In this document: piece after piece, positions 4,308 to 62,574 of the stretch
Numbering within the stretch: position 1 is the first letter of the stretch
Layout of the letters: each line of letters opens with the position of its first letter
From: a virus
DNA: 64,000 nt
IMG/VR virus record: IMGVR_UViG_3300008111_000002
Location: 62,001-126,000 of that record
Direction: 5' to 3' (one strand)
The notes under the pieces: generated by a model
Databases searched by the model: none
Seen by the model: the letters and a program-made list of their open reading frames with translations, nothing else
Told to the model about the DNA's origin: nothing
Program-made: the position numbers and the translations under genes

Positions 4308-4315
4308 TATTTATG
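4308..4315 (-). promoter_or_regulatory. late promoter core CATAAATA
   Basis: On the minus strand this reads CATAAATA, one base from the T4 late core TATAAATA recognised by gp55. It lies 27 bases before the ATG at 4281, leaving room for a short leader with a ribosome binding site. It would drive the operon running to the left edge. Confidence 0.6.
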
Positions 4316-18200: not shown

Positions 18201-21200
18201 GCTACAATTGTTTCGTCTTGTACAAAAGAAGAATAAGTTCCATTTTTTGATATTCTATCAAATTTCATAGTAATATCAAAAGATCTAATTGTTCCTTTTC
18301 CAATTATAGCACTAGCTTTGGCTTGAGTTCCGGTATCAGAAAATCCGCCAACTAATGTAACTGTAGGTGCAGATGTATATCCTATACCCTCTTTAGTAAT
18401 AACAACTCCGGTTACACTACCGTTAGAAACATATGCCAATGCTTCGGCACCGCTGCCACCGCCGCCGTTAATTACAACAGTAGGAGGATTAATGTATCCA
18501 GAACCAGAATCATATACCGTTATCTCAATAACTTTGTAGGTATTATTATCTTTCCAAAGTTTCCAAGGATATGTGTTTAAAATTTCATTATTTGTTTTTA
18601 CTGGGATTAATTTACCTTCTGTATCTTCGTAATAAGGAGGAAGGTCAAAATCAGTCAGTAATGATTGTGTATTTTCTAAAGAATTATATGTACTAGTAAA
18701 TTCTCTAATTTTTGTTCTATAAGGTTTAACTTCTTTTAGATACTGTTCATAACTTTCAAGATTGTCATTCTTATAATGAGACTTTTGTTCAAGATCCCCA
18801 ATAGTATGTATTGCATTTAAAAAGCTTGTTTTAAAGGCCCAATCAACATATAATTGTTCAGAAAAAATAAAATGAATACTATTAAAAAATAGTTTATTCC
18901 AATAAAATTTAAATTCATCAATTAATATATTTTCTTTAATTGCTTTAATAATATTTCTTGTTTCGCTAACTGGCTGATTATCGTATGATATTAAATCATA
19001 TGTTCCAACATTATCGTATCCTACTTGATTTTGTGCATCATCGTAGATTAAAGAAGAAATTTCAATAGTTCCTCGGTATCTTCCAACTAATTCGTATTTT
19101 TCATTTATAGTAGTAGCAGAAAGATTTATTAATTTTAAAACAGCCCATCCGCCACTTCCATATTCGGAAACTTTTATTAAATCATTAACTTTTAAATCTA
19201 TTAATTTAGCTAATTGTGGTTCGTAATAAGTTCCTGGAATTTCGTCAATAATTTTATTTGAAGAATTATAACCTTGAGCCCACCAGTCAATATAAGACCA
19301 ATACTTTGTAGTATCAAAGTCTTGAGTTAAGGATCTGTAGAATGTTTTGTTTCTTTCATTAAATTGATAAATTGCCCAGTAATTTCTGTAGGTCTCGTCT
19401 GTTTTAACTAACACAGAAAAACCTCTTACATTTAAAATTACATTGTCATATTTTTTGCCTGGATTATTAATAACGTAACCTGTTACTTTACCAGAATTAT
19501 CAATTGTTAATGTAACTCTAGCACCAGATCCTGTCCCAACTATTGATACAGGGGGAGCTACTCTGTAACCAAATCCAGAATCAACAATATCAATCGATTC
19601 AATTTGTCCATCAATTAAATTAGCTCTTAATAATGCTGGTCTAACTCTTGCAGCATTAATTGTGATTAACTCTGCATATGTTTCGACAGAGACATCATAT
19701 AATTTTAATGTTTCGGTTGGAACTTCATCTATTGCATTTAAATTTGTAAAATCTAATGTTTCAGCAAATGGTTTTTCTCTTAATACTGCATTTACATCAT
19801 CAACAAAAATTTTAAGAGCAGTTGATTTGTTAACAAACATACTCTGTCTTGGTCTAAATAAAATTCCATATTTTTGTTTAGGGGCTAGATTTGGATCGGG
19901 AACTTTGTTACCAGCCTGATCATAGCCAATTAAACTATCAATCCATTTTTGTTCTAATTGTAAAGTAGGTACACTATCGCCCTGTCCCTCCGTTAACAGT
20001 TCATATTCATGATGTATTAAATTAATATTTTTATTAGAGTTATTGAATTTAATATTCAATACGGCACTTGTACTAGGAAGATATTTTTCAAAATTATATG
20101 CCAATAATCTATCTTGAGATATAAACCCAACAAAAGGAATTCCAGAACTAATTGGACTTGTAATATACAAGGCAACTTCTGCTGCTGATATTTTTCTATT
20201 ACTGCTATCCGGAACAACTACAGAATTTTTTACCCAGTAATAATAATAACTAGTGAGTACTGTTCCTGTTTTTTCATCATATACTTCTTTAATATTATAA
20301 ACAGTATCGTTGGCATATAACGGTTGTCCAGAAATGTTTAATGCCAAACCTTCAGTAGTATCGGCAATTAACGACCATTGAGACGGTAAAATTTTTGTTT
20401 CTACCCACTCGTACACATCCACTGACGACGAATCTGCTAATTCATTCCAATGACCAATTTTATAGGATAACTCTCCCTGTTCGTAGTTAGTCCATTTAAC
20501 TGTTTTAAAATTAACCCAAATCTTTCCTACATTAGTTTCATACCAAGTTCTTGAAGAATCAACAATAACCGAATCATTTCCTTTAGAATAAATTGCAGGA
20601 TCGTAGGGATTTTTAAAAGAAATTTCTTGTTCTACAATTCCTAAAAACTTATATTTGTAATGATCAACAATATCAACATCTGTAATTTTTTTATTATTTT
20701 CAACGTCGTATAACGCAAGACTCTTAATTAAATCTATTCTTGTCTGCGGTTCCTGTTGACCGATTGTTGACCAAGTTTTAGCTGTGGCAGAACGTTTAAA
20801 TTTTCTAACTTGACCAATAACTCCCTGAGCTGTTTTAAGTGTTGGAGAACCAACAACTATTACATTGTCATTAAGATCTAATGAGAACCCAAAACTTTCA
20901 TTAGGTATTAAATTTGGCGGATCTAATTCTTCGGCAAGGTAGTACTCTGTATCTTGTTTTTCATATACATAAACTCGACCGGTGTTTCCTCGTTTATCAA
21001 AAAATGTAGTGGTATTCTGATCAAATCTAGTTTTACTTAAATCGTACTTAATATTAAATTTTGTAATTGAATTTTGACCTGAAACTACTAATGAATTAGC
21101 ATCATTAGAAATTTTTACCTGTGTACCGTATAACTCAAAGTTTGATGCATCGGATCCACTAATTTTATTTGTTATAACGTATTTTTCATTTGTTCGAGAA

Positions 21201-24200
21201 TATTTAAAAACATAAACATATCCGTTGTCAACATAACCATAATCACCATACGGGGCCGATACAACCAAAGTGTCACCAGTAGCGTCAATGTCAACCGACG
21301 ATCCTAAACGATCTCCGGTTTCAATTATTTGAAGTCCGATATCACTTAATAACGATAGATTCTGATTGTTAATTGTTTGAAATAATCTATAAACTCCGAG
21401 ATCATTACGTTTATAAACAAATACTTTACCAAATTTTTTATTTGAACTATCGAAAGTACCAATATCAATTAGTGTCCAATTAATTCCTGTTGTTGGAATA
21501 TCGTTAATAGATGTAGAACCATTTACACGATAATAGTTAGACTCGTATCTAACAACATCGCCGCCCCCATAAAGTGTATAAGATTTCCACACACCCTTGT
21601 AATTAGTAAATGATCTATCATCCCCGTATGGCGACCCTACTATTAATGTAGATGCATCACTATTAAATGCAATTGAGGTACCAAACTGATCGCCTTGTTT
21701 GACAATTTCTGGTAATCTAAATATTGACGAATCCGGAAGTAACCCTACTTCTGAAATTGTACCGTCAGATACCATTGCAGCACTAGTCGGAAGAGAACTT
21801 TGTGTAATTGTATCTTCCATCTCGATCCAATCTGCAGAATTTACAGTAATTGTGCTACCATCGGCTTGCTGATTAGATTTTGCTTTCCATAACTTATTAG
21901 CGTAATAAACTATCGAACCTGCAATGTATTGTCTTGATGGATCATACACTCCCTGATACGATTCGTCTTCTATTAATTCCCAAATTGGATTATCATTGTC
22001 TGTATCATTTAATGTATAAAGATATACTGCTCCTGTGGCATTAACTGCTCCAGGAGCAGAAATAGCTAGATAATATTTTCCGTTTGAAATTCCGGAAGTT
22101 ATACTAAATCCAAATAATTCGTTTGGTTGAGGACGAGGACTTACAAACGATCCTTCATAATTCCATTGTTCTTCATACCATCTGTATATTGAAACCATAC
22201 CTTGTTCGATATAACCAGAATTTCCAGCGGTAGTTAACGCCCAATAAGTTTGATTGATTGGTAAATTGTTTGTAGTATTTTGTAAAGCAATATATGAAAA
22301 AATACCAAATTTAACTATAGAACCTTTTCTATAAAATCTGCTTGGATCATAAGAATCTTGATATGTATCTGCCGGAATATTATAAACATATTCCCAATCT
22401 GCAGATTCTAAAGTGATAGTACTTCCATCACCATTAAGATTACGTGTTGCTCTCCAAAGTTTGCCTGCAAACAATACTATATCATTTTGTTCGTAATCTT
22501 CTGTTTCAGAAAAAATTCCTTGAAAACGAGATCCTATGCCACTAACTAACGGTGAACCAACAAATAACCATTGTTCGTCAGATGTAGCATGTAACGAATA
22601 TCCAAACTTTCCTAGTAAGTTTGTTGTAAAAGAATCTGGAGCTATTAGAGTTTGAACATTTCTTAATGTTCCGTCAAAATTGTCTTTGTAAACTGCTACT
22701 CCATTTGATCCTGGGAGTGACGCAATAGTTTGATTTCTAAATGTTAAATGAATTACTGCTGTTCCTGCACCTCGGGGAATTGAATAACCATAATCACTAA
22801 TTTCATTCCTGGTGTAAATTGAACTTATTTTTTCTATTACTTCCCATCTATTGTTTTCGTCATTATCGATCCATAGTTTATCGCCTACTTTTAATTTTGC
22901 AATTTGAGGATCTGATAATTCTTTAGCTGTTGTTAGTCGTGAATCAACAAATATACCAACTGCTAATAATGAACTGTTATCTATTTCTGGATCGCCGCCT
23001 GTAGGTAATGCAACATTAAAAGTAAAAGGTTCAACTGAAATAATCTTATGATAACCGGATAATCTAGCTATTCCCTCAATTCCTATAATTTGATCGACTG
23101 TAAAATTATGTCTTACATTACAGGTTAATGTAACTATTTTATCTGAGTTATTAACTTCTAAACTATCAATTAAAATATTAGATCGTGTGTATCTAAAAAC
23201 TGACCATTGATCTGGTTCTACAAATGTAGTCCAAATATGATCACCGTAATTAATAGTATCTGCAGATAAACTGAGAACGTTTTCTAACTTTGCAGTTTTA
23301 AAATCTACTTGATCTTCTCTTACATATCCAGCGGTTCTATTTGGAACATTTTGATAAGCAACTGGAATTATATTTTTATCTGCACCGTAAGGTTTAATTA
23401 CAAAATCATTAATTGGAATTCGATAATATAAGTCATTGGTTTCAGAATATTCAATAGAGTTATTAATTAAAAGAGGCTGAGGAGTTAGTTTAAACTGACC
23501 TTTGTTTAGTGCAATTTCGTATTCTTTATATTGATCTGTTCCGCCAAAGTCACCTACTCTAAATGCCCATTCTTCTTTGAGAATTACACTATCAGTATTA
23601 TTTCTACTTAATTTGTCAAAGATTTTAGTAATAGCATTTTTTGTACCTTTTTCTCTAATAAATCCTTGATAGATTTTAAATTGAGAAACTGAATCTTCAC
23701 TTAGATTATTAAGATATTCTCTCGATTGATAACCAATAGAATGACGTGCTAGATCTCGTTGGCTTGATCCAAGGCCGTCTGAATCAAGATCATAATAATC
23801 TTCAAACTGATTAATGCGATAATCAAAGTTTGCTACCAAACCTTTGCTAGGAATGTTATCTAATTTAGTCCAGTTAGTTTCATTAAACTCTATTGTACCT
23901 TCTTGTTTTTTCTTACTAGTCCAGAAAAATTCTCTATAGCGTACAATATCACCCAAATTATAATCTGTATATTGTTGCCACGACTGTACATTAACATTGT
24001 CAAATATAAATCCAGGACTTGTGTAATCTCCGTCCCAGTCTGTGGTTCTAAAACCGATTACTTTAACTCTATCCTGTCTATATCCAGAAGTTTTATCGTA
24101 TAACACATCATTAAAAACAGTTTTATCATCAAATAATACTACATGTTCTTTTAATACAAAGTTAATATTTGCAAAATAGATTCCATCTAGAGTATCTGTT

Positions 24201-27200
24201 ACAGTAATAGAAAATTCTTGATAATCTCTGTTAACGTTAATAAACGAACTTGACAAAACTGTGCCATCACGCTTATAAATGGCATAATCATAAAAACTAT
24301 CTAATAAGTTATCAACTGAACCTAACCCAAATTTAATATGAAACTTGTATGCTGCCGGACTTAGAGTTATTAATTGTCCCTCTGCCCAATTATGCTTACT
24401 CCAAAACATAAATTCTTTAACTGAGGTGGTCCAATTATTAACCGTTTGAGTTTCATAATTGTATTGATCAAATATCATTCCTAAAGTTAATAGGTATTGA
24501 TCATATCCAAAAATAAAATTAGCAACAGATTGTAAAGTTGGTAATACTGTTCCGTAGGATAATTTTTTCAAAGTATTAAAATTAAAATTCTGTCTTTTTA
24601 AAACTTCGACTGCACCAACCTGCTCAAGTTTTGATATTTGTTTAAACAACTTTTCATCAAAGGATGTGATACTTTGATGTGATGATAAAACTTTAAAATA
24701 TTTGCCCTGATACTGAACTGTTTGACCAATTTGATAATTTTTGTTAGGTTCCCATACCAAGAAACTGTCAGTTACTCCACCAACTGTAATAAACGGATCT
24801 GTTTTAGATTCTACCGCTTCATAATAATTAAAGTAAGGATTTTTGTTGTCATACCCAGATAATCTCCATCCAGTATTAACTTTTTCAATTATTACGCCAC
24901 TATAGTTAATAGTTAAGAACGGTGTTCCAATGTTAAAAATTATATTATAATTTTCTTGAGGAATAAAAATACTGCTCGATTTTGATTTAGGATTTTTACT
25001 ATCTAAAAGATATTTTTGCTGAGTAGCATCGACGAATCCCCCCAGTTTATTTGATAATTTAATATCTAAATTTTTAATTTTTTTAGTTAATAACTCAGTA
25101 TCTTTATCTTGTCCTTTAATATAATCAATAATATAATTTAATAAACCTGTTGTTTGTAAACCATTTACCGATGGAATTAGTATTGAATTAATATCAATAA
25201 ATTTATTTGTTTCAGAATAAACTGTTTGTCCAATTATATTTGTTTTAACTCTAAATGAATCAAGAGACTTAGAAATAAATTCAAACGGTCTTAACAATGA
25301 TAGCGCAGACATTAAGGCAAATGGATACTGTGGACTCTTTCTCCATGCGGCTTCTGCAGGACTAATATCTCCAAACTTAAAATTACCTTTTGAATTAATT
25401 AATACAAAATCTTGTGCTAAATTTGCCTGCAACGGAGATAGCAACTGTCCTTGATCATTTACGGGTATATGAGATAAAATAGTAGATCGTCGATATCTTT
25501 GATGAGTGCCTGCACGAGATCCTCGACGAATTCTGCCATCACGAATATCCTCCCAAAGAATTAAATTATTTCTAGTATAAGGAGCAGGTCCATATTCTTC
25601 GTCCCACCAAATTGGTTTTTCACTAAACCCTAACATTTCCCAAGGACATGTATGTGGTCTATCAGTATCATAAACCCACTGATAAACACCTCTCCACCAA
25701 CCTACAAGATTTTTTTGCTGAGTAAAATCAGTCATTAAATTGTAAGTATAGGTAAATGTATTTTCAGAATCAAAGTATGTATTGTTTACATAATCTACAT
25801 TACCGCTAGTAATCCACGTTAAAAAATATGGTTCTAAAATTGAATCAACTTGTTCTTTAGTAAAAATACCCGTATTATAATAACCGCCCAATGTTGCATC
25901 AATATCAAAAACAGTACTTTCGTATTGAACTTTAATATTGTTATAAATTCTTCTTTCTAATTCTAATAACAAATCATCTCTAAAGTCATTAAAGGCAACT
26001 GTGATACTTCCATCATGTCCTTGTATAACTTTAGTTGGTGTTATGTATGTGTCGTCAATAAAAATTCTTGGAACATACTTTTTATAAAGTCCCAACTTAG
26101 TAGGAGTTGAGGGTATAAAATTAAACGAAGTGGTATTATATTCCCGCACTTCTAATACATCACCTTCATTTAAATTACCAGAAAAGTTTATGTAACCAAA
26201 GGTTTGATTAAATGTATAATCTGCTCCGTGCAATAATTGAACATTATTTTTGTAAACATAGACAGCTTTTCTTGATAAGGTGTCAAGACTAAATTTTTCA
26301 TTTAATGCAAATGTTTTAATTTGATCTTCAATTTTACAAATTACTTTTTTATATGAGCCAGATCCAATCATGTCAGAATCTGCAAACGAATTACTTGCAG
26401 TTTTAATTCTGCTCATTTCTGTAATAATTTGATCTACAAAATTAATTGGGTTTAAGTCATATGCTAATGTAACTGCTAGATTTAAAAAATTATTTCTAAA
26501 CTGATTATAACTTTTAGCAGCATAATCAATAGATTTAATAACATTGATTTCTTTGTCGCAGAGCAACATTAGTGATAATGCAGAAATTCCTTCGTGCTTT
26601 AATAATCTTCTGCCGTATTTTTGAAATCCTGAAATATCTCTAATATTACTATTGCCCGGATATAATCCAGTAAATCTTGTATCGAGTTCAAGCATAGTTC
26701 CTAAATGATCTAAAACTTGACCGTAGGTAAAAGATGTTAAATCTTGATTTAAAGGGTTTTTTTCTAATCCAACAGGAATTTCATAATATCCCTGATCTGG
26801 AGTTGCATCGGTATATACTTTAATTGTTATAACATCATTAACTGCAAAATTATTCGCAAATACAAAAGTTTGATTTCTATTTCCAGTTCTTGTAAACTGA
26901 TCTTTAAATAAGGAACCGTTTTTGTAAAAAATAATTCTTTCAGTAGTCGACTCGTTCCAGTTGACACTGTTAAATGTAATTGATTTAGTTACCGATGTTA
27001 TTACTTGACTATCAATTATTGGTTGTAAGAATTCTTTATCCGTTTTAATCCAAGTATTAGAATAGACTTCGCCGTTTAAAGTATTAAACTTTAAAAATCC
27101 GCTAGAAATTTTTAAAGTTTTAACTAACTGATTTTGATAGGTAAAAGAATCAACATCCCAATTTATTTCAAATAAAACGTCGCCAATATTATCAATATTA

Positions 27201-29155
27201 AGATAACTTAATGAAATTCCTATTTCAGAATCCACAATACCGTTGCCGAGTTTATAACTTAAAATTGTTGTTCCCTTAAAATTTGTAACAGGATATTTGG
27301 TAGAATTTCCAAAAGAAACTTTGTCAGAATCAAACACATCAAATAACGGACTTTGATTTACTGCTGTTTTTTCTTGACTCTTTGACCAAGCAGTTCCGTC
27401 ATAATGAAACATCTTTCCTCTATACTTTTTACCTTTGTTTATAAGAACACATTCGCCAGATTGACTAACTGCATCACTGGCTTCAACTAAACTAATTTGT
27501 CTACCAGTATTGCCACTATATTGTGTTGATATAAAATTAACAATATAAATTTTATTGTTAACTAGAGTATCTGTATCGGCAGTAACTAATAATCTTGCAC
27601 CATTGAATAGTGCCTCTCCGTCAATATTATAACCACTAGTTCCTTCGATAACACTGAAAATATCAGATGTGTAATTATCTATAAAATCAACTGACTTTTT
27701 AGAGGTAGAGCCGTGATTAAACAATTGAATATTAGGATGATATTCGATAATTGGTCTTTTTGCTCTTGATGATTCGTCTGCATCTGGAGACGAATTGTTA
27801 AGTTGATGAGCATATTCTATAACACTTTTATGAAACCATCTATTTGACCTAGACCAAGGATTATTATCATTACTAGCACGATTTGAAATAATATAATCTT
27901 TTACGCCAGGGTAAAAAGCTGCTTCATCAAAAGGAACGGTATCAAATCCCTCGTTATCAAAAATTATTTCAGGTTGATTATTAGAAGTAATTGGCGGGGT
28001 CAAATCGTCAAAATTTATTAGATTAATACCTTTACCAACACCTTCAATTATCCAACGTCCAGAATTATATTTTTCAGGATATGTTTTACCTAAAAAGGAA
28101 ATCATTAAACCATTAGTAAATTTTACATTATTACTACTAGTGTAGGCTAACTTTTGTAAGATTTCTTTTTCAACATCTATAAATGTATTTTCTGTAATAT
28201 CCTTGATAATAAATTGGCCTGTTCGCAAAGGCTCTTGATCGCTGACATAATATAGCATATCAGGAGAATCTACAGGTACTGTGAATGTAACAGTGCCAAC
28301 TTCAATACCGTTATTAATTACACCTTTATTATAATAGTTAACATCTATTAATTCAGTTAATTCCCAATCTTGTGAAAATTCATCAATAGTACTGCCGTCA
28401 CCGTAAACATCGACTTTTGCTTTCCATAGTTTATTATTAAATTCAACAACGTCGCCCGGTTGGTAATTCATTAATGGGTTAAATTCTCCCATTACAAGAT
28501 CTACTGAATTTGTTGTTCTAATTGAAAATTTATTTCTTGGAGAGTTAACCTCAAACTTATAAGTTTGGCCTCTATACAAAACTAATTTGGGATTAAATGT
28601 CAGTCCATCTGGATAAAACATCCATGACGGGACATCGCCTGTGTCATCAGATCTAACTCTATAAGTCGATTCTATCTGTTGTGCTTGACCTGCAACAGCT
28701 ACTAAGGGCGGTCCATTAACCTGCCAGTAATATTCTCTAAAATTAACAAATTTATCCCAGTCAATGGGAGGATCCCACGAGTAACACTGGCTTTGCGTAA
28801 TTAAATCATCTCTTTCTAATTTATTAAAAAAGAAGTTTAATTGATTTTTAAAATCTAAATAATCGTAAAAATTGTTTACTGATCCGTTGCCGTCAGTAAC
28901 AACCACTCCTGGTTCTAACTGATATCTACTTCTTAAAGTATTATCAGTATCAATATAAATGTCATTGCCGTTATAACTTTTACCGTATCTTCTCCCAATA
29001 AATCCAGAAATTTTTTCTAAAACTCCGGGCTGTATTAGTGGGTCAAAAACACCACCTAAAAATTTACTGTTGGCATCTGTCTTAAAAACAGAAGGAAGAA
29101 AATCCGTTGATCTTCTTATTGGTAATCCACTTTGATCAAAAACTTTATCTGTCAT
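15260..29155 (-). CDS. giant virion structural protein in the gp7 position
   Basis: A single 4631-residue reading frame that begins one base after the gp6 stop. T4 gp7, the wedge protein in this slot, is about 1030 residues, so this is far larger. The N-terminus (about 20-155) has LGGVFDPLIQPGVLE and GRRYGKSYNGNDIY, seen in giant structural proteins of marine T4-like phages. Residues about 2185-2790 hold six or so FG-GAP-like units (FGYSLHATSDEQWLFVGSP, FGTSIAFNSDASTLIVGSP and others), which suggests a beta-propeller. CBM-like units (KGSIVKFGIFSYIALQNTT) occur near 1740, 2230, 2290, 2420 and 2540. GSGY-P motifs lie near 3190 and 3550. It probably replaces several wedge and fibre proteins; this is inference. 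Confidence 0.75.
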   Translation of the reverse strand: MTDKVFDQSGLPIRRSTDFLPSVFKTDANSKFLGGVFDPLIQPGVLEKISGFIGRRYGKSYNGNDIYIDTDNTLRSRYQLEPGVVVTDGNGSVNNFYDYLDFKNQLNFFFNKLERDDLITQSQCYSWDPPIDWDKFVNFREYYWQVNGPPLVAVAGQAQQIESTYRVRSDDTGDVPSWMFYPDGLTFNPKLVLYRGQTYKFEVNSPRNKFSIRTTNSVDLVMGEFNPLMNYQPGDVVEFNNKLWKAKVDVYGDGSTIDEFSQDWELTELIDVNYYNKGVINNGIEVGTVTFTVPVDSPDMLYYVSDQEPLRTGQFIIKDITENTFIDVEKEILQKLAYTSSNNVKFTNGLMISFLGKTYPEKYNSGRWIIEGVGKGINLINFDDLTPPITSNNQPEIIFDNEGFDTVPFDEAAFYPGVKDYIISNRASNDNNPWSRSNRWFHKSVIEYAHQLNNSSPDADESSRAKRPIIEYHPNIQLFNHGSTSKKSVDFIDNYTSDIFSVIEGTSGYNIDGEALFNGARLLVTADTDTLVNNKIYIVNFISTQYSGNTGRQISLVEASDAVSQSGECVLINKGKKYRGKMFHYDGTAWSKSQEKTAVNQSPLFDVFDSDKVSFGNSTKYPVTNFKGTTILSYKLGNGIVDSEIGISLSYLNIDNIGDVLFEINWDVDSFTYQNQLVKTLKISSGFLKFNTLNGEVYSNTWIKTDKEFLQPIIDSQVITSVTKSITFNSVNWNESTTERIIFYKNGSLFKDQFTRTGNRNQTFVFANNFAVNDVITIKVYTDATPDQGYYEIPVGLEKNPLNQDLTSFTYGQVLDHLGTMLELDTRFTGLYPGNSNIRDISGFQKYGRRLLKHEGISALSLMLLCDKEINVIKSIDYAAKSYNQFRNNFLNLAVTLAYDLNPINFVDQIITEMSRIKTASNSFADSDMIGSGSYKKVICKIEDQIKTFALNEKFSLDTLSRKAVYVYKNNVQLLHGADYTFNQTFGYINFSGNLNEGDVLEVREYNTTSFNFIPSTPTKLGLYKKYVPRIFIDDTYITPTKVIQGHDGSITVAFNDFRDDLLLELERRIYNNIKVQYESTVFDIDATLGGYYNTGIFTKEQVDSILEPYFLTWITSGNVDYVNNTYFDSENTFTYTYNLMTDFTQQKNLVGWWRGVYQWVYDTDRPHTCPWEMLGFSEKPIWWDEEYGPAPYTRNNLILWEDIRDGRIRRGSRAGTHQRYRRSTILSHIPVNDQGQLLSPLQANLAQDFVLINSKGNFKFGDISPAEAAWRKSPQYPFALMSALSLLRPFEFISKSLDSFRVKTNIIGQTVYSETNKFIDINSILIPSVNGLQTTGLLNYIIDYIKGQDKDTELLTKKIKNLDIKLSNKLGGFVDATQQKYLLDSKNPKSKSSSIFIPQENYNIIFNIGTPFLTINYSGVIIEKVNTGWRLSGYDNKNPYFNYYEAVESKTDPFITVGGVTDSFLVWEPNKNYQIGQTVQYQGKYFKVLSSHQSITSFDEKLFKQISKLEQVGAVEVLKRQNFNFNTLKKLSYGTVLPTLQSVANFIFGYDQYLLTLGMIFDQYNYETQTVNNWTTSVKEFMFWSKHNWAEGQLITLSPAAYKFHIKFGLGSVDNLLDSFYDYAIYKRDGTVLSSSFINVNRDYQEFSITVTDTLDGIYFANINFVLKEHVVLFDDKTVFNDVLYDKTSGYRQDRVKVIGFRTTDWDGDYTSPGFIFDNVNVQSWQQYTDYNLGDIVRYREFFWTSKKKQEGTIEFNETNWTKLDNIPSKGLVANFDYRINQFEDYYDLDSDGLGSSQRDLARHSIGYQSREYLNNLSEDSVSQFKIYQGFIREKGTKNAITKIFDKLSRNNTDSVILKEEWAFRVGDFGGTDQYKEYEIALNKGQFKLTPQPLLINNSIEYSETNDLYYRIPINDFVIKPYGADKNIIPVAYQNVPNRTAGYVREDQVDFKTAKLENVLSLSADTINYGDHIWTTFVEPDQWSVFRYTRSNILIDSLEVNNSDKIVTLTCNVRHNFTVDQIIGIEGIARLSGYHKIISVEPFTFNVALPTGGDPEIDNSSLLAVGIFVDSRLTTAKELSDPQIAKLKVGDKLWIDNDENNRWEVIEKISSIYTRNEISDYGYSIPRGAGTAVIHLTFRNQTIASLPGSNGVAVYKDNFDGTLRNVQTLIAPDSFTTNLLGKFGYSLHATSDEQWLFVGSPLVSGIGSRFQGIFSETEDYEQNDIVLFAGKLWRATRNLNGDGSTITLESADWEYVYNIPADTYQDSYDPSRFYRKGSIVKFGIFSYIALQNTTNNLPINQTYWALTTAGNSGYIEQGMVSIYRWYEEQWNYEGSFVSPRPQPNELFGFSITSGISNGKYYLAISAPGAVNATGAVYLYTLNDTDNDNPIWELIEDESYQGVYDPSRQYIAGSIVYYANKLWKAKSNQQADGSTITVNSADWIEMEDTITQSSLPTSAAMVSDGTISEVGLLPDSSIFRLPEIVKQGDQFGTSIAFNSDASTLIVGSPYGDDRSFTNYKGVWKSYTLYGGGDVVRYESNYYRVNGSTSINDIPTTGINWTLIDIGTFDSSNKKFGKVFVYKRNDLGVYRLFQTINNQNLSLLSDIGLQIIETGDRLGSSVDIDATGDTLVVSAPYGDYGYVDNGYVYVFKYSRTNEKYVITNKISGSDASNFELYGTQVKISNDANSLVVSGQNSITKFNIKYDLSKTRFDQNTTTFFDKRGNTGRVYVYEKQDTEYYLAEELDPPNLIPNESFGFSLDLNDNVIVVGSPTLKTAQGVIGQVRKFKRSATAKTWSTIGQQEPQTRIDLIKSLALYDVENNKKITDVDIVDHYKYKFLGIVEQEISFKNPYDPAIYSKGNDSVIVDSSRTWYETNVGKIWVNFKTVKWTNYEQGELSYKIGHWNELADSSSVDVYEWVETKILPSQWSLIADTTEGLALNISGQPLYANDTVYNIKEVYDEKTGTVLTSYYYYWVKNSVVVPDSSNRKISAAEVALYITSPISSGIPFVGFISQDRLLAYNFEKYLPSTSAVLNIKFNNSNKNINLIHHEYELLTEGQGDSVPTLQLEQKWIDSLIGYDQAGNKVPDPNLAPKQKYGILFRPRQSMFVNKSTALKIFVDDVNAVLREKPFAETLDFTNLNAIDEVPTETLKLYDVSVETYAELITINAARVRPALLRANLIDGQIESIDIVDSGFGYRVAPPVSIVGTGSGARVTLTIDNSGKVTGYVINNPGKKYDNVILNVRGFSVLVKTDETYRNYWAIYQFNERNKTFYRSLTQDFDTTKYWSYIDWWAQGYNSSNKIIDEIPGTYYEPQLAKLIDLKVNDLIKVSEYGSGGWAVLKLINLSATTINEKYELVGRYRGTIEISSLIYDDAQNQVGYDNVGTYDLISYDNQPVSETRNIIKAIKENILIDEFKFYWNKLFFNSIHFIFSEQLYVDWAFKTSFLNAIHTIGDLEQKSHYKNDNLESYEQYLKEVKPYRTKIREFTSTYNSLENTQSLLTDFDLPPYYEDTEGKLIPVKTNNEILNTYPWKLWKDNNTYKVIEITVYDSGSGYINPPTVVINGGGGSGAEALAYVSNGSVTGVVITKEGIGYTSAPTVTLVGGFSDTGTQAKASAIIGKGTIRSFDITMKFDRISKNGTYSSFVQDETIVASGVTSVFNLKYPPSRDRSKITVYLNNGLILSNEYELSLFEQMIDGFTFIQGRIKFLLVPATGTVIRIIYSKNDEILDSVDRIKKYYNPLDGMTGKDASQLMTGIDFGGVIIQGSSFNSTGGWDALPWFSDSWDSVTPNSDYYVIADGSTTSIQLPYTPSIGQAINVYIKRGDFSTLPDKTGRFTRIDDPYYNVYDGSTVQPNGKRSAPAGVLMNTFIGNGVIKDIDLPILLATQAGDILIFRPSTSDGSVNITDTNVQDTLLSGGSLLNTNNIYSTANGLTAEEIVVSGDKFISPDQVPSPEENVPGQVLDTVSIKTFHRTYVGAAQVKSNVYFTDGIAKRFKFTNKILESKSVSVYLDKVKQGQSLDLYNISYDYYLDFKNSEIEFFVTPPAGKIVEIVSIGPGGYAILDFSEFVGDGATRYFLTKAQYVETSYIIVTVNGLEVPVSFVTSKGLLNDKDETVIEFSVPPSFNQVVKILVLGTSIEADSSGQSAIRINEQIIIHDGSTRLYDLDKFVNLERSSAAGNMLVEVNNRLIPSGDTQVIVYNGSNNSNIIGQDPYFGPGSIDVRNISVYINEIKTEFISDWILEGSTNLLTITKSLIIGDEIRIEIAQNNSYKIENNEIRLLPVLSLNPGDLIKVIWFSEYPTMSLIKDRFPGNYGVMKLRRKVTDISTVWVYKNGFRLAPEVEYEVNLTDNFVKLTNLALSTDDITLVIFGQENYNPVFAYEIFKDMLNLTHYKRYIIGQVKLTQELNYYDTQITVDNGDYLFVPDIINKIPGTVTINSERINYYQKNGNILSQLTRGILGTSIPEKHNINSDVVDVGIGESLPYREYQNKEEFISDGTSLLIGPLLTTPIKSTRNTVWYRSTIPATHGPNDQYEVFVNGKRLRKNPYKRYQETNGLASPLADIDVEAEFSVDGTTPYIRLTTAISAGSRIVIISKTGNIFYDTGLSTAASGITLINNDSVVAQFLRNKSTK

Positions 29156-50797: not shown

Positions 50798-50805
50798 GAT
50801 AAATA
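50798..50805 (+). promoter_or_regulatory. late promoter core GATAAATA
   Basis: GATAAATA only 4 bases before the ATG of the 81-residue gene. That spacing would put the transcript start at the start codon, so the site may serve downstream head genes or yield leaderless RNA. Confidence 0.4.
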
Positions 50806-50809
50806 CAAG

Positions 50810-51055
50810 ATGAAACTTTTAGAGTTCTTTTATTTTAACGACAAAAATAACAATTACAGCATTGACCGTAGGTATAGTGCTGAAAATGACATATCTGTTT
50901 TGGAAAAAGATGATAACAGAAAAGTAAGGTTAACCTTTAAACAAATAAATTTGTTACGTATGCAAAGCGAAGCACACGAAGCAGAAAAAGAAGCCGAACT
51001 AGGATTTGTAAGACAGATGTATGGTCAGCCACCAATCGCAGAACAGCCCCAATAA
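50810..51055 (+). CDS. small protein in the gp67 position
   Basis: An 81-residue, mostly charged and helical protein (KVRLTFKQINLLRMQSEAHE). It lies right after portal gp20, where T4 has gp67, the 80-residue prohead core protein, so a core role is possible; similarity beyond size is not visible to me. There is no ribosome binding site: the sequence before ATG is GATAAATACAAG. The stop lies 35 bases inside the next gene. Confidence 0.6.
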   Translation: MKLLEFFYFNDKNNNYSIDRRYSAENDISVLEKDDNRKVRLTFKQINLLRMQSEAHEAEKEAELGFVRQMYGQPPIAEQPQ

Positions 51056-51647
51056 ACCCGCATTTGTATTAGGAAATGGACGTAGTCGTTTATCAGTTAA
51101 TGTAAACGATCTTACATCAACCGGCATTGTTTTTGCCTGTAATGCCATATACAGAGAAGCATCAGTTGATCATTTAATTGCAGTCGATGTAAAAATGGTT
51201 AACGAAATAGTATCATCTGGATACAATCAAACTAATACAGTTTGGACAAATCCAAATAAAGGTATTATAAATTCTTCTAATCTTAACTTTTTTGATCCGC
51301 ACAAAGGATGGAGTAGCGGTCCTACTGCACTTTGGTTAGCTGCAACTATGGGACACAGAGAAATATATATTTTAGGTTTTGACTTTGAAGGTGTTGAAGG
51401 CAAGTTTAACAATGTATATGCTGACACATTTAACTACAAAAAAAGTTGGGAAGTACCTACATTTTATGGTAATTGGGTAACACAGACAGAACGTGTTATT
51501 AAAGATTTCCCCTCAACTACTTTTTATAGATTAGTTGGAAATAAAAAATATTTTACACCTCCTGCATTGGCAGAGCAAAGAAATCTAATTCATATGAATT
51601 ACAATACTTTAGCTACAAATTTTGGATTATCCCTACAAAAATCCTAA
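51021..51647 (+). CDS. MptE/DUF115-like protein
   Basis: A 208-residue protein. It has the signature order of the MptE-like (DUF115) family: FVLGNGRSR at 15-23, HLIAVDVKM at 51-59, GWSSGPTALWLAATMG at 96-111 and ILGFDFEG at 117-124. In cellular organisms such domains bind nucleotides in transferase-type reactions on sugars or pterins. It sits inside the head cluster between the gp67-position gene and the acidic core protein, so a virion modification is possible but unproven. The ATG overlaps the upstream gene by 35 bases with no strong ribosome binding site, so the start is uncertain. Confidence 0.7.
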   Translation: MVSHQSQNSPNKPAFVLGNGRSRLSVNVNDLTSTGIVFACNAIYREASVDHLIAVDVKMVNEIVSSGYNQTNTVWTNPNKGIINSSNLNFFDPHKGWSSGPTALWLAATMGHREIYILGFDFEGVEGKFNNVYADTFNYKKSWEVPTFYGNWVTQTERVIKDFPSTTFYRLVGNKKYFTPPALAEQRNLIHMNYNTLATNFGLSLQKS

Positions 51648-52558: not shown

Positions 52559-52570
52559 TCGGAGCCTTTG

Positions 52571-53203
52571 GTGAAAAATTACCTTAGCGAGCATCTGAGT
52601 TTTGACCAAGCTGGTCTAGTTCTTGAATCTGTCGAAGAGGGCGGAAACAAATCTTTACACCTTAATGGAATTTGTATTCAAGGTGATATTCGTAATGCGA
52701 ATCAAAGAATTTATCCAGTCTCCGAAATAGGTAGGGCTGTCAAAACCGTCAATGAACAAATAGCTGGTGGTTATTCAGTGCTAGGGGAAGTTGATCACCC
52801 TGCGGACCTACGCATTAATTTGGATCGAGTCAGTCACATGGTAACAAAGATGTGGATGGACGGTCCAAATGGATACGGAAAAATGAAGATTCTACCAACT
52901 CCCATGGGACAGTTAATTTCAACCATGTTGCAGAGTGGAGTCAAACTTGGCGTATCAAGCAGAGGTTCCGGTAATGTTGCTGAAGACGGTAGCGGAAAAG
53001 TAAGTGATTTTGAAATTATCACAGTTGACATTGTAGCTCAACCATCCGCTCCCGGAGCATATCCAACACCGGTTTACGAACATATTATGAATCAAACAGG
53101 CGGTTATAAAGCATTTAATATAGCAAGGGAAGTACAAGGCGATCCAAAGGCACAGAAATACATAGCAGAGAATCTTAAACAGATTATCTCTAAACTAAAA
53201 TAA
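52571..53203 (+). CDS. 21: prohead protease gp21
   Basis: A 210-residue protein when started at GTG 52571, which is preceded by GGAG at 6 bases; an in-frame TTG lies one codon earlier with poorer spacing. T4 gp21 is 212. The catalytic His is H76 in GEVDHP and the catalytic Ser is in LGVSSRGSG (S129/S130), the serine-histidine arrangement of herpesvirus-type assemblins. It cleaves scaffold, core and capsid proteins after [LI]-x-E. It lies between core and scaffold genes as in T4. Confidence 0.93.
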   Translation: MKNYLSEHLSFDQAGLVLESVEEGGNKSLHLNGICIQGDIRNANQRIYPVSEIGRAVKTVNEQIAGGYSVLGEVDHPADLRINLDRVSHMVTKMWMDGPNGYGKMKILPTPMGQLISTMLQSGVKLGVSSRGSGNVAEDGSGKVSDFEIITVDIVAQPSAPGAYPTPVYEHIMNQTGGYKAFNIAREVQGDPKAQKYIAENLKQIISKLK

Positions 53204-53217
53204 CGTAGGAGAATCAC

Positions 53218-54309
53218 ATGCTAGATTTAGTTAAACAACTCTTTGAAAATAATGTGATTTCCGAGGAAATGAAATCGGAGATTGAAACAGCTTGGCAAAC
53301 AAGAATTCAAGAAAACCGAGATCAAGTTACAGCAGAGCTACGTGAAGAGTTCGCACAAAAATACGAACACGACAAAGCAACAATGGTCGAAGCAGTTGAA
53401 ACAATGCTAGAAGATCGGTTGCAAGCAGAATTAGGTGAGTTGGCCGAAGACCGTCAAGGTTTAATTGAAGCTAAAGCCAAGTATGCTAAGAAAATGAAAG
53501 ATGATGCTAAAAAAATGGAAGAATTCGTTCTTCACAAATTAGTATCAGAACTTTCAGAACTTCACGAAGATCGCAAGAGAGTAGCATCAAATGTTGCCAA
53601 ATTAGAATCTTTTATTGTGGATAGTCTAGCCAAAGAAATAGCAGAGTTCCACATTGACAAAAAAGATTTAGCAGAAACCAAAGTAAAATTAGTTCGCGAA
53701 AGCAAAGCTAAATTTGCTGGTGTTAAGAAAGAATTCTTATCACGTTCTGCTGTGTTAGTTAAAGAAACAGTAGAAAAAACTCTACGTTCTGAAATTGGCC
53801 AACTAAAAGAAGACATTGAAGCTGCTCGCAAAAATGACTTTGGTCGCAGACTTTTTGAAAGCTTTGCCAGCGAGTACGCTGCATCTCATTTAAATGAGAA
53901 ATCTGAAACAGCTAAACTTCTAAAGGTTGTAAAAACCAAAGAAGCTGAATTAGAAGAAGCAGCAAAAATTGTAGCAGAACATCAAAGAATCGTTGAAAGC
54001 AAAGACAGAGAAATCCGCATTGCGAGAGATCTTGCTGTCCGTAAAGACATTATGAGTGAACTTTTAGGACCGCTTGCTGGAGACAAGAAAACAGTAATGA
54101 ATGAGTTGCTAGAAAGCGTAGCAACCGACAAACTCCGCGGAGCATACGACAAGTATCTACCAGCTGTAATAGCCGGCGAAGCTCCTAAGAAGAAGGCATT
54201 GACAGAAGGCAAAGAAATTACAGGCGATAAAGAGGCACATACACAAAGCAGCGAAGGGAAAGCTGCTGAAATTTTCACAATCCGCAAGCTTGCGGGACTT
54301 AAAGTTTAA
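53218..54309 (+). CDS. 22: scaffolding (prohead core) protein gp22
   Basis: A 363-residue, highly charged, almost wholly helical protein (Glu/Lys/Ala heptads, about 20-280), longer than T4 gp22 (269). It forms the core around which the capsid builds and is destroyed by gp21; several [LI]-x-E strings fit that. The C-terminal tail (PKKKALTEGKEITGDKEAH and the AEIFTIRKLAGLKV end) is conserved-looking, perhaps the capsid contact. TAGGAGAA precedes the ATG, 14 bases after the protease gene. Confidence 0.9.
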   Translation: MLDLVKQLFENNVISEEMKSEIETAWQTRIQENRDQVTAELREEFAQKYEHDKATMVEAVETMLEDRLQAELGELAEDRQGLIEAKAKYAKKMKDDAKKMEEFVLHKLVSELSELHEDRKRVASNVAKLESFIVDSLAKEIAEFHIDKKDLAETKVKLVRESKAKFAGVKKEFLSRSAVLVKETVEKTLRSEIGQLKEDIEAARKNDFGRRLFESFASEYAASHLNEKSETAKLLKVVKTKEAELEEAAKIVAEHQRIVESKDREIRIARDLAVRKDIMSELLGPLAGDKKTVMNELLESVATDKLRGAYDKYLPAVIAGEAPKKKALTEGKEITGDKEAHTQSSEGKAAEIFTIRKLAGLKV

Positions 54310-54320
54310 GGAGAACTAAT

Positions 54321-55490
54321 ATGTCAGAACTACTCGAGTCACGCTGGCAGGAAACCAAAGAGGCACTATTAGAAGGCCTACAAGGAACTCGTCGTTCAGT
54401 AATGGCCACTACTTTAGAAAATACCCGCAAGTATTTGTCTGAGAGTGCCACTGCTGGTGCTACTTCTGCCGGTAATGTCGCAACCCTAAATCGTGTGATC
54501 CTTCCAGTGATCAGACGTGTAATGCCAACAGTCATTGCAAATGAACTAGTTGGTGTACAACCTATGACTGGCCCAGTTGGTCAAATTCATACTCTACGTG
54601 TTCGCTATGCAGATAGCGGTAATAACGTAGTAGCTGGTGAAGAAGCATTCAGCCCATTTAAAATTGCTGCTGCTTATTCTGGTAATGATACTGATTCAAC
54701 ACCAAAAGCTAATTCTACTGCAACCCTAGAAGGTCAAGCAGGTAAGAAAATGAGCATTCAAATCCTCAAGCAAACTGTCGAGGCAAAAACTCGTAAGTTA
54801 AGCGCACGTTGGACATTTGAAGCTGCTCAAGATGCACAAGCCCAACAAGGCATTGACATCGAAGCAGAAATTATGGCAGCTCTTGCACAAGAAATTACTG
54901 CTGAAATCGATCAAGAAGTTCTAGCTTCTTTACGCACACTAGCTGGTACAGCAACAGAAACCTATAATCAGGCTGCTGTTTCTGGTACAGCTACATTCGT
55001 TGGTGATGAACACGCTGCTTTAGCTGTTCAGATCAATCGTGTTGCTAACTTGATCGCTCAGCGTACACGTCGTGGTGCAGGTAACTATGCTGTTGTTAGC
55101 CCATTTGCGTTAACAATTCTACAGTCTGCAACTACTTCTGCGTTTGCACGTACCACTGAAGGTACTTTCGAAGCACCTACAAACACCAAGTTTGTTGGTA
55201 CATTGAACAGCGCAATGCGTGTTTATGTTGATGGTTACGCTGCTGATAGTACAGCAGTTCTAATTGGTTACAAAGGTTCTAGCGAATCTGATGCACCAGC
55301 ATTCTATTGCCCATACATTCCGTTGATGAGCAGTGGTGTTGTGTTAGATCCGTCAACATTTGAGCCAGTAGTTAGCTTTATGACCAGATATGGTTATGTT
55401 GAGTTAACAAACGTAGCATCTTCTTTAGGTAACGCAGCTGACTACCTAGGAAAAGTTGATATTACTAGCGGTAACGTTAAGTTTAGCTAA
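54321..55490 (+). CDS. 23: major capsid protein gp23
   Basis: A 389-residue protein of the gp23 family: LNRVILPVIRRVMPTVIANE, then VGVQPMTGPVGQIHTLRVRYA, and the C-terminal PYIPLMSSGVVLDPSTFEP. It is shorter than T4 gp23 (521). The N-terminus has KYLSE followed by SATAGA, an L-S-E site after residue 41 that fits gp21 cleavage, so a mature protein of about 348 residues is likely. AAGGAGAA precedes the ATG. The gene is followed by a strong terminator at 55517-55540. Codon use favours high expression by eye. Confidence 0.95.
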   Translation: MSELLESRWQETKEALLEGLQGTRRSVMATTLENTRKYLSESATAGATSAGNVATLNRVILPVIRRVMPTVIANELVGVQPMTGPVGQIHTLRVRYADSGNNVVAGEEAFSPFKIAAAYSGNDTDSTPKANSTATLEGQAGKKMSIQILKQTVEAKTRKLSARWTFEAAQDAQAQQGIDIEAEIMAALAQEITAEIDQEVLASLRTLAGTATETYNQAAVSGTATFVGDEHAALAVQINRVANLIAQRTRRGAGNYAVVSPFALTILQSATTSAFARTTEGTFEAPTNTKFVGTLNSAMRVYVDGYAADSTAVLIGYKGSSESDAPAFYCPYIPLMSSGVVLDPSTFEPVVSFMTRYGYVELTNVASSLGNAADYLGKVDITSGNVKFS

Positions 55491-55558: not shown

Positions 55559-55828
55559 ATGCAGGTAGAAAGCGAACAAGATTTTTCTGAATTGCGCAAG
55601 AGAATTCAAGAATGGCGTAAACGCTTTCCTATGTTTGTACACGATGTTCATAAAATTGAGCATATTATAGAACAGCATATTCAAAATTTTTCTATTGCAG
55701 GAGTTCATTATCGACAATCTAAAAGTAAAAAATATTTAGAACTTGCACAAAAAGAATTAGACGAAATTAATAGAATAATAACAACCGTTGAAAAATTGGA
55801 ACTGATAGCATTACTATCCCAAAGATAA
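55559..55828 (+). CDS. small helical protein after gp23
   Basis: An 89-residue, mostly helical protein (RKRIQEWRKRFPMFVHDVHK, then a C-terminal coil with DEINRIITTVEKLELIALL). No family is recognised. There is no ribosome binding site; CTTAAATACCAG precedes the ATG, like the 81-residue gene after gp20. It begins 18 bases after the terminator, so it needs its own promoter or readthrough. Confidence 0.65.
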   Translation: MQVESEQDFSELRKRIQEWRKRFPMFVHDVHKIEHIIEQHIQNFSIAGVHYRQSKSKKYLELAQKELDEINRIITTVEKLELIALLSQR

Positions 55829-55831
55829 ATA
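55824..55831 (+). promoter_or_regulatory. late promoter core GATAAATA
   Basis: GATAAATA spans the stop of the 89-residue gene and precedes the structured leader of the 127-residue gene by a few bases. A clear match to the late-promoter pattern. Confidence 0.6.
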
Positions 55832-55915: not shown

Positions 55916-56299
55916 ATGGGACGTCCATTAAGAAAAGATGTAAACGGTGTTGATGTACTCAACACATACGCAGCAGCAAATACCGGTATTAGAGTTGAAT
56001 TCCATGATGGTACATCACTAAGAACAGACGGTATTTTAATCAAACAACGTGGTGCAAAAACATTTGTTTGCGCTAGAATTGGAACTCCGACAGTATTAAC
56101 TACCAGTGTTCTACAGAATACAACACCATCCGCAGTAGGTCAAATGAATCTATTTGGATATGTTGGTGGTAACGGCGGAGCAAAAGTAAATCTTGCAAAA
56201 ATAACCAAGCGTGTTGCAACTGACTTTAGTAACAATAGATATACTTGGATTTTACAAAACGATAGTTCAAACGACTATATTGTATTAACAGCAATTTAA
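55916..56299 (+). CDS. virion structural protein, 127 aa
   Basis: A 127-residue protein with a distinctive start (MGRPLRKDVNGVDVLNTYA) seen in marine T4-like phage structural proteins. The rest is beta-rich (GIRVEFHDGTSLRTDGILI, GAKTFVCARI). A head decoration or neck role is possible. AAGGAGAA precedes the ATG. It opens the late cassette after leader A. Confidence 0.7.
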   Translation: MGRPLRKDVNGVDVLNTYAAANTGIRVEFHDGTSLRTDGILIKQRGAKTFVCARIGTPTVLTTSVLQNTTPSAVGQMNLFGYVGGNGGAKVNLAKITKRVATDFSNNRYTWILQNDSSNDYIVLTAI

Positions 56300-62199: not shown

Positions 62200-62574
62200 A
62201 TGAGTCAAACATATTACGTTGGCGCACCAGATCTAGGCTCAATGCTTGGTGAAGGTAATATTAGATATTTTTACGGACTTCGTCGCGATGCAGAAGGTAA
62301 CATTTTTTTAAGTAAAGTTGACCAGGTCTTGGGAGACGATATAGTTCCTATTAATGTTGCCGGACCGTTTGACGAAAATTTTAATGATTTTGAATTTGGT
62401 GTTGATTTTTTTGATGGTACATTAGAAGATAAAACAAAACCATACCCAAATTTATATTTTGATCAATATAAGTGGGACGAGCGTAACATTTATTATTATA
62501 TCAATGAGAATGGTGAACTAGTAGCACGTATCAATAAAAAATACGATTATAGTTTAGTAGATGTTGGACAATAA
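62200..62574 (+). CDS. structural protein, 124 aa
   Basis: A 124-residue acidic protein rich in aromatic residues (TYYVGAPDLGSMLGEGNIRY, then NLYFDQYKWDERNIYYYI). No family is recognised. AAGGAATT precedes the ATG, 12 bases after the previous gene. A late-promoter core follows its stop. Confidence 0.65.
   Translation: MSQTYYVGAPDLGSMLGEGNIRYFYGLRRDAEGNIFLSKVDQVLGDDIVPINVAGPFDENFNDFEFGVDFFDGTLEDKTKPYPNLYFDQYKWDERNIYYYINENGELVARINKKYDYSLVDVGQ

Follow-up and report, generated by a model that had tools for sequence, protein, structure and literature searches.

Several described systems come close to the phage gene analysed here, which we call Q. Maf, a cellular protein of three domains, O-glycosylates flagellin, so that it modifies a self-assembling structural protein, and its central DUF115 domain resembles CstII (excerpts of PMC11339370). 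The reaction that defines a Maf enzyme is the transfer of a nonulosonic acid to Ser/Thr of such a protein. CstI and CstII, of family GT42, carry a catalytic histidine, and MptE is the archaeal, ATP-dependent 6-hydroxymethylpterin diphosphokinase (HPPK). As for phage particles themselves, the virion glycosylation of mycobacteriophages offers a precedent in capsid and tail proteins (Freeman 2023, as cited in excerpts of PMC12619734 and PMC10568470). Compared with these systems, Q is phage-borne and has a single domain; the three-domain architecture of Maf is not found in it, although Maf is the best structural match to its model. Uncultured-phage proteins named MptE-like and giant-virus DUF115 proteins in the BFVD database share the fold of Q at 10-20% identity, and in that database Q has 25 matches at E ≤ 0.001, three of them named MptE-like and one named DUF115.

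The head cluster around Q

Q lies in the window (the whole stretch of 64,000 nucleotides that was analysed, within a virus record of 209,836 bases), and its place inside a head cluster, claimed in an earlier note on this DNA, was confirmed by Pfam matches of its portal, S77 protease and Gp23 capsid neighbours (Table 1), the portal gene gp20 (1.1e-108) being upstream of o81. The overlap with the preceding gene, also claimed there, is equally real, as the start codon of Q is located 35 bp inside o81, an ORF of 81 aa. The gp67 and gp68 labels given to the neighbours of Q stand for position and size, and family profiles name neither of them. Both neighbours have HMM homologues in the jumbo phage PA5oct: the homologue of o81 (EST35_0150) is annotated as a structural protein by ESI-MS/MS, and that of the gp68-like gene, found at the same position, is annotated as structural by MS. 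Elsewhere in the window, the minus strand carries one ORF of 4631 aa (15260-29155).

Table 1. Coordinates in the window of Q, its head-cluster neighbours, late-promoter-like motifs and pocket motifs.
Feature	Position	Strand	Remarks
ATAAATA motif	50799..50805	+	late-promoter-like; 5 nt before o81
o81, gp67-position gene, 81 aa	50810..51055	+	first cistron of the o81-Q unit
Q, 208 aa	51021..51647	+	ATG start; stand-alone protein of DUF115/Maf/GT42 fold (predicted)
GNGRSR, residues 18-23 of Q	51072..51089	+	aligned with CstII GNGPSL, the nucleotide-binding loop
CNAIYR, residues 40-45 of Q	51138..51155	+	N41 aligned with CstII N31; C40 in 242/245 rows, N41 in 244/245
D56 of Q, in AVD(V/P)KM	51186..51188	+	243/245; near CstII N51 by eye
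SSG, residues 98-100 of Q	51312..51320	+	S99 aligned with CstII S132; S99 in 231/245, G100 in 242/245
GFD (119-121) and family-specific loop NNxYxxTxxY (130-139) of Q	51375..51437	+	
N151-W152 of Q	51471..51476	+	about at CstII catalytic His188; N151 in 225/245, W152 in 238/245
gp68-position gene, acidic, 273 aa	51737..52558	+	prohead core type, by position
Prohead core protease gp21	52568..53203	+	Pfam S77 2.4e-23
Scaffold gp22-position gene	53218..54309	+	phrog_10922 4.4e-78; homologue called scaffolding in 121Q
Major capsid protein gp23	54321..55490	+	Pfam Gp23 4.6e-99
ATAAATA motif	55825..55831	+	upstream of o127
o127, predicted all-beta MGRP protein	55916..56299	+	homologue directly precedes Q in the sister group

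Q is a real gene, conserved in the head cassette and under purifying selection. Its dN/dS is 0.10 against the nearest clearly different relative (L007), 23 columns are invariant in a 32-row alignment of the family that includes the pelagiphage relatives, and an IMG/VR scan with Q found 368 related stretches, the best 80 of which were retained. The ATG of the window is replaced by ACG in several relatives, which prompted us to consider a programmed frameshift from o81 into Q. This was ruled out by the presence of an in-frame ATG, GTG or TTG in 111/111 distinct members of the overlap type (in 89 of them it lies in the final 75 nt of o81, and in the other 22 only past the o81 stop); with a legal start codon in all 111, a frameshift is unnecessary.

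Predicted fold and pocket of Q

The AlphaFold model of Q, made from 65 rows of the window and IMG/VR, has a mean pLDDT of 91.8 and a pTM of 0.89. VIA-align placed Maf at the top (5mu5; Z 12.8 over 175 residues, rmsd 4.3 Å, 14% identity), then CstII (1ro7, Z 11.1), CstI (Z 10.9) and archaeal MptE/HPPK (8sd5, Z 10.4), with SteA (Z 9.0), thiamin pyrophosphokinase (Z 8.4) and human ST8SiaIII (Z 8.1) lower down; rows within 1 Z count as tied, hence CstII and MptE/HPPK are tied. Foldseek returned four chains at E ≤ 0.001, namely two CstII entries, a Pasteurella sialyltransferase and HPPK, with TM-scores of 0.34-0.47. When a 32-row profile of the Q family was compared with solved structures, the nine matches below E 0.02 were all sialyltransferases and included no HPPK; these nine best matches are CstI, CstII and the Pasteurella enzyme 9c08, which we take to be of the GT42 class. 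The best of them, 1ro8, has an E of 7e-4 for the whole sequence; the best single stretch reaches an E of 0.058, and the resemblance to GT42 at the sequence level is faint. Among sequence families, Q matches phrog_30607 (unknown, 8.8e-27) and phrog_4603 (alpha-2,3-sialyltransferase, 2.9e-4) in PHROGs, and its top Pfam match is MptE-like (PF01973, DUF115) at 19.4 bits, below the cut-off of 34.6; the Pfam CST-I (GT42) family gives 14.4 bits, below its cut-off of 25.

The earlier note had described Q as an MptE-like (DUF115) gene, and part of this description stands. The predicted model has the fold shared by PF01973 proteins, with 5mu5 and 8sd5 among its best matches, but MptE is only the nearest Pfam name, as the sequence profile reaches the CstI/CstII sialyltransferases and structure ranks Maf first. 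Moreover, no PTPS-family pterin gene was found in the genome to which the window belongs. A reading of Q as a pyrophosphokinase-like or other nucleotide-using enzyme on the MptE/TPK side, acting on a small molecule that is needed late or packaged, seems to us quite unlikely. It would agree with the top Pfam match, with the archaeal HPPK structure coming within 1 Z of CstII and the thiamin pyrophosphokinases reaching a Z of about 8, with the near-invariance of D56 and D121 and with a PTPS-family gene located beside one distant Q paralogue, whereas sialyltransferases, and no HPPK, came up when the profile was compared with solved structures, and PTPS genes occur in 2/11 records, the window's own not being one of the two.

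Residue conservation was counted in 245 family rows gathered by the family's own HMM. G18, N19, G20, S22, R23, C40, N41, D56, G100, G119, D121, N131 and Y139 are kept in at least 241 of them, those of the GNGRSR loop each in at least 242, and in the GFD motif and the family-specific loop the counts are 241 for D121, 237 for N130, 242 for N131, 233 for Y133, 230 for T136 and 243 for Y139. GNG, CN (N31), SG (S132, G133) and GxD (D154) coincide in a profile alignment of Q with CstII, the CstII residue numbers being counted by hand from this alignment. These donor-side motifs of GT42 are present in Q, and the nucleotide side of its pocket looks intact when judged from the aligned residues.

His188 has been described as the general base of CstII (excerpt of PMC4202792). 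Q has no His there but N151 and W152 at about that place, together with its own NNxYxxTxxY loop, and none of the histidines is conserved family-wide in the 245 rows; the placements of N151-W152 at His188 and of D56 at N51 come from motif alignment and not from superposed coordinates. As the catalytic His is missing, Q is not a canonical GT42 enzyme. This same absence would fit a protein that kept the DUF115 fold, lost its catalysis and came to serve in the prohead core or in assembly, as would the location of Q between two core-type genes and the conserved basic N-terminal extension of one sub-clade. However, pocket-type residues are the most conserved ones in the family, the N-terminal region lacks a conserved protease site of the L/I-x-E type and family members are also found outside the head cluster, and we consider a dead enzyme very unlikely. 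The packaged core proteins of T4 carry a targeting peptide at the N terminus, followed by a cleavage site of the gp21 type (L/I-x-E). Such a conserved N-terminal site is absent from Q, and its being a packaged core protein with a gp21-processed leader was discarded; L/I-x-E is found in more than 12/65 rows only at residue 160 (41/65), inside a predicted helix.

The basic N-terminal extension is conserved in 41 first-site Q rows, 31 of them distinct (for example L149:7860, L142:3819 and L175:3476), with the motif M(A/P)K(L/I)DKSxYTKxxW...RRxEK, and is missing from the Q of the window. It is possible that it works as a docking peptide in this sub-clade.

Two head-region sites of the Q family

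Two Q-based scans gave 157 viral loci, one of them (L083) being the window's own and several others near copies of it. Q lies after o81 in 157/157, and the order o81, Q, gp68-like gene is found in 152, while the contig ends after Q in three and tandem Q copies occur in two. Because these loci had been fetched by Q itself, we resampled with the scaffold protein, using a query centred on an estuarine relative: Q was present in 54/54 of the loci that reach the site, the remaining 26 of the 80 ending short of it (start positions were checked for 21 of these 26). Conservation of the position was the check that the earlier note had proposed beforehand, and with Q in 54/54 assessable close relatives a recent insertion without a head role is rejected. 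Farther out, a query centred on PA5oct returned 75 new loci, 45 without Q at the site, 9 with it and 21 unscorable, and the head cassettes of the jumbo phages PA5oct, 121Q, Vibrio 2.275.O, Atu_ph07 and Phosso contain no Q. To our knowledge, T4 itself has no Q-type gene at this site. The earlier note had said so for T4, and the absence extends to these sampled jumbo cassettes of the T4 superfamily. The scaffold-based and jumbo-phage samplings together indicate that Q is fixed in several aquatic lineages of the T4 superfamily and missing at this site in deeper relatives.

Other arrangements were seen as well. Tandem duplicates of Q that have diverged share one place in L142, L149, L165 and L403. 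In five relatives lacking Q (L261, L269, L272, L273 and L278), an unrelated conserved protein of 270-290 aa, with the motifs GCSWS, GxSNFxI and SPNTF, lies between o81 and the gp68-like gene. Searches of Pfam (with three of the five), PHROGs (one) and NCBIfam (two) gave nothing useful for these proteins, and a profile built from all five had a best E of 1.9 against the PDB; the GCSWS and GxSN motifs recall SGNH hydrolases by eye, an identity without database backing that we do not claim. There are also inserts at the portal/o81 junction (L244, L245, L248, L283 and L308), among them a gene with weak methyltransferase matches and a long ORF that looks homing endonuclease-like by eye.

A second location of the family came to light when a divergent copy (L309) was made the centre of the query, which returned 80 loci, 73 of them new. 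The order o127, Q was present in 60 of the new loci, 12 were of the first-site type and one had no recognised neighbour. The major capsid gene was recognised upstream in 38 of the 60, and in some of the other 22 it was not seen within about 5 kb. Besides the clade of the window, a sister group carries the Q family downstream of the capsid gene, behind o127. In the six second-site loci that were inspected, the ORFs following Q look fibre-like by eye. Both sites could be judged in 98 loci, with Q at the first site only in 87, at the second only in 6, at neither in 5 and at both in 0 (a few contigs are counted twice); as most were fetched via Q, only the absence of the last class is informative.

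In the Q tree, whose bootstrap is not fully settled, 97/97 first-site rows form one clade with three unscored rows (support 98/100). A FastTree of the gp21 protease (88 representatives of 256) needs seven changes among first site, second site and no Q; its first-site rows fall into one large clade of 20 (support 1.0), another of 14 (support 0.95) and two singles. It is a tree of a short marker, in which the class without Q includes loci with an unjudgeable second site, and it does not show that the first site gained Q only once.

o127, the gene that precedes Q at the second site, is variable, with two copies or a much longer form in some relatives. Its model is all-beta (pLDDT 86.4), but a convincing match among solved structures is absent (Foldseek best E 1.1; VIA best Z 4.9 over 44 residues), and its identification as a decoration protein was not retained. 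Its sequence has no Pfam or PHROG match at E 0.01, no NCBIfam match at 0.1 and no tblastn match at 0.01 in the named-phage collection.

The family was also found in a collection of cellular genomes and in named phages. A scan of GTDB species genomes gave 20 Q-family loci, of which one is in a single-cell genome of Prochlorococcus and the other 19 are in MAGs; two of the 20 (L391 and L392) clearly represent head cassettes of phages that were binned with a bacterium, and in two marine MAG contigs (L399 and L403) Q lies 0.6-1.5 kb after the major capsid gene. In the named-phage collection, matches were found only in HTVC008M (two copies) and Mosig, close to gp59- and gp32-type replication genes. 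These pelagiphage copies near replication genes indicate that the Q family is not confined to head clusters.

Late-type motifs, candidate sugar donor and proposed role

Late promoters read NATAAATA in S-PM2 and TATAAATA in T4 (excerpt of PMC2984593), and a similar motif has been predicted at 35 places in the jumbo phage CBB and lies ahead of structural genes in GAP32 (excerpts of PMC5259590). The window contains one copy of TATAAATA vs 12 expected, and ATAAATA is depleted in it (13 copies vs 41 expected). Eleven of the 13 copies are located 5-101 nt before a same-strand ORF; the one at 62571 is at the end of the last listed ORF and the one at 7421 has no same-strand ORF near. A motif of the (N/T)ATAAATA type, as in T4-type late genes, is present upstream of the o81-Q unit, and this copy is the only exact one on both strands between the start of the portal gene and the end of the major capsid gene. 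As a ready map of likely late promoters of this phage, the copies are at 4308, 7421, 8209, 15248, 38521, 43376, 46348, 46367, 50799, 55825, 58706, 60236 and 62571.

Among relatives, ATAAATA was no more than 60 nt away from the portal stop at 137/148 distinct junctions with Q at the first site vs 16/54 loci without Q there (Fisher p 1e-18, uncorrected for relatedness), and in 158/11100 random windows (1.4%) taken as background; its presence at the portal/o81 junction may thus follow the lineage and not Q. In the 120 nt preceding o127 it was present in 29/47 second-site and 62/70 first-site distinct regions. It was found just after o81 in 0/152 cases where Q follows, and just after o127 in 0/57. 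Frequencies at the remaining junctions were 13/155 for Q/gp68-like, 0/133 for gp68-like/protease, 1/117 for protease/scaffold, 1/98 for scaffold/capsid and 22/90 after the capsid gene. With the motif before o81 and o127 and none directly before Q, motif placement makes Q the second cistron at both sites, after a gene that is in most cases preceded by a late-type motif. Judging from this arrangement, Q is probably expressed late. Late co-expression alone is not proof of a virion target.

Regarding the donor, CMP-sugar synthetase (CTP_transf_3, PF02348) and NeuB (PF03102) were each detected in 0/11 records, which include that of the window and may be fragments. A phage-encoded supply of sialic acid or CMP-sugar was rejected on this absence, and a CMP-sugar donor would need to be host-made. 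CMP-Kdo production is nearly universal among Gram-negative bacteria. Furthermore, CbMaf accepts Kdo as well as Neu5Ac (excerpt of PMC11339370). A search for GT2 glycosyltransferases gave matches above the cut-off in 2/11 records and one below it in the window's record (20.2 vs 23.3 bits). In a 199-kb relative (G001; L411:3877-6937), the genes after a distant Q paralogue are one of the PTPS family, kdsA and one for a 275-aa protein. This kdsA, one gene away from the paralogue, is above the cut-offs of two NCBIfam KDO8P-synthase models (411 and 386 bits) and below that of a third, and was found in 1/19 records. The 275-aa protein looks glycosyltransferase-like by eye and has no Pfam or NCBIfam match. 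The neighbourhood points towards Kdo without proving it, and its PTPS gene would equally suit a pterin-related function.

The main rival to a virion target is the host surface. Q could be a late transferase that modifies the LPS core or O-chain, with Kdo or a sialic-acid-like sugar for instance, and so blocks superinfection or the re-adsorption of progeny, its place in the head cluster giving late timing only. CstI and CstII act on lipooligosaccharide (excerpt of PMC4202792), and the glycosyltransferases of pelagimyophages have been proposed, as a class, to modify the host O-chain (excerpt of PMC7029224). The pelagiphage copies outside the head cluster and the kdsA gene near the distant paralogue would also be in agreement with such a target. 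However, Q of the main clade lies in the head cassette at every locus fetched by Q, the second site is again in the head region, and no membrane anchor was noticed on inspecting the sequence by eye. On balance, we regard a host-surface target as rather unlikely.

The reading that we prefer, tentatively and as a possibility, is that Q may be a late transferase putting a host-supplied sugar on a virion protein. Its predicted fold, its position and its promoter architecture are supported by the data presented above, and the enzymatic activity, donor, acceptor, benefit and actual late expression that we infer for it are as follows. The o81-Q transcript would be made late in infection along with the head genes, and Q would bind a nucleotide-activated sugar supplied by the host through its GNG, CN, SG and GxD motifs, the donor being plausibly a CMP-sugar acid such as CMP-Kdo. 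The sugar would then be moved onto a structural protein of the virion, be it a capsid, decoration or fibre protein, around assembly, on the model of Maf, which acts on flagellin subunits; by position, the capsid, o127 and the fibre proteins are candidates for the acceptor. Shielding, adsorption or stability might be the benefit. A virion-coupled sugar or nucleotide modification had been raised as possible in the earlier note, and the case for virion-coupled modification is strengthened because of the second head-region site and the late-promoter architecture. A narrower version, in which a dedicated, head-operon, single-domain Maf-like transferase in a large aquatic clade of the T4 superfamily adds a host-derived sugar acid of the Kdo type to the virion, is doubtful when taken as a whole.

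In the literature searched, as far as its titles and the beginnings of its abstracts go, there is no description of virion glycosylation of this form in T4 relatives, nor of gene Q in work on DUF115, sialyltransferases, capsid glycosylation, Maf or jumbo phages; an excerpt of PMC12839542 contains a single mention of DUF115. The Q family appears to add a new variant, at family level, to what is known of phage glycosyltransferases. Even with a host-surface target, a fold and a probable class would now be assigned to phrog_30607, which PHROGs lists as unknown. The family is small and testable, has a clear signature (GNGxSR, CNxxYR and NNxYxxTxxY) and could serve to flag phages with possibly sugar-bearing particles. 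If our preferred reading is true, virion glycosylation would be built into the head morphogenesis of widespread uncultured T4-related phages, by means of an enzyme akin to the sugar transferases of flagellin and lipooligosaccharide.
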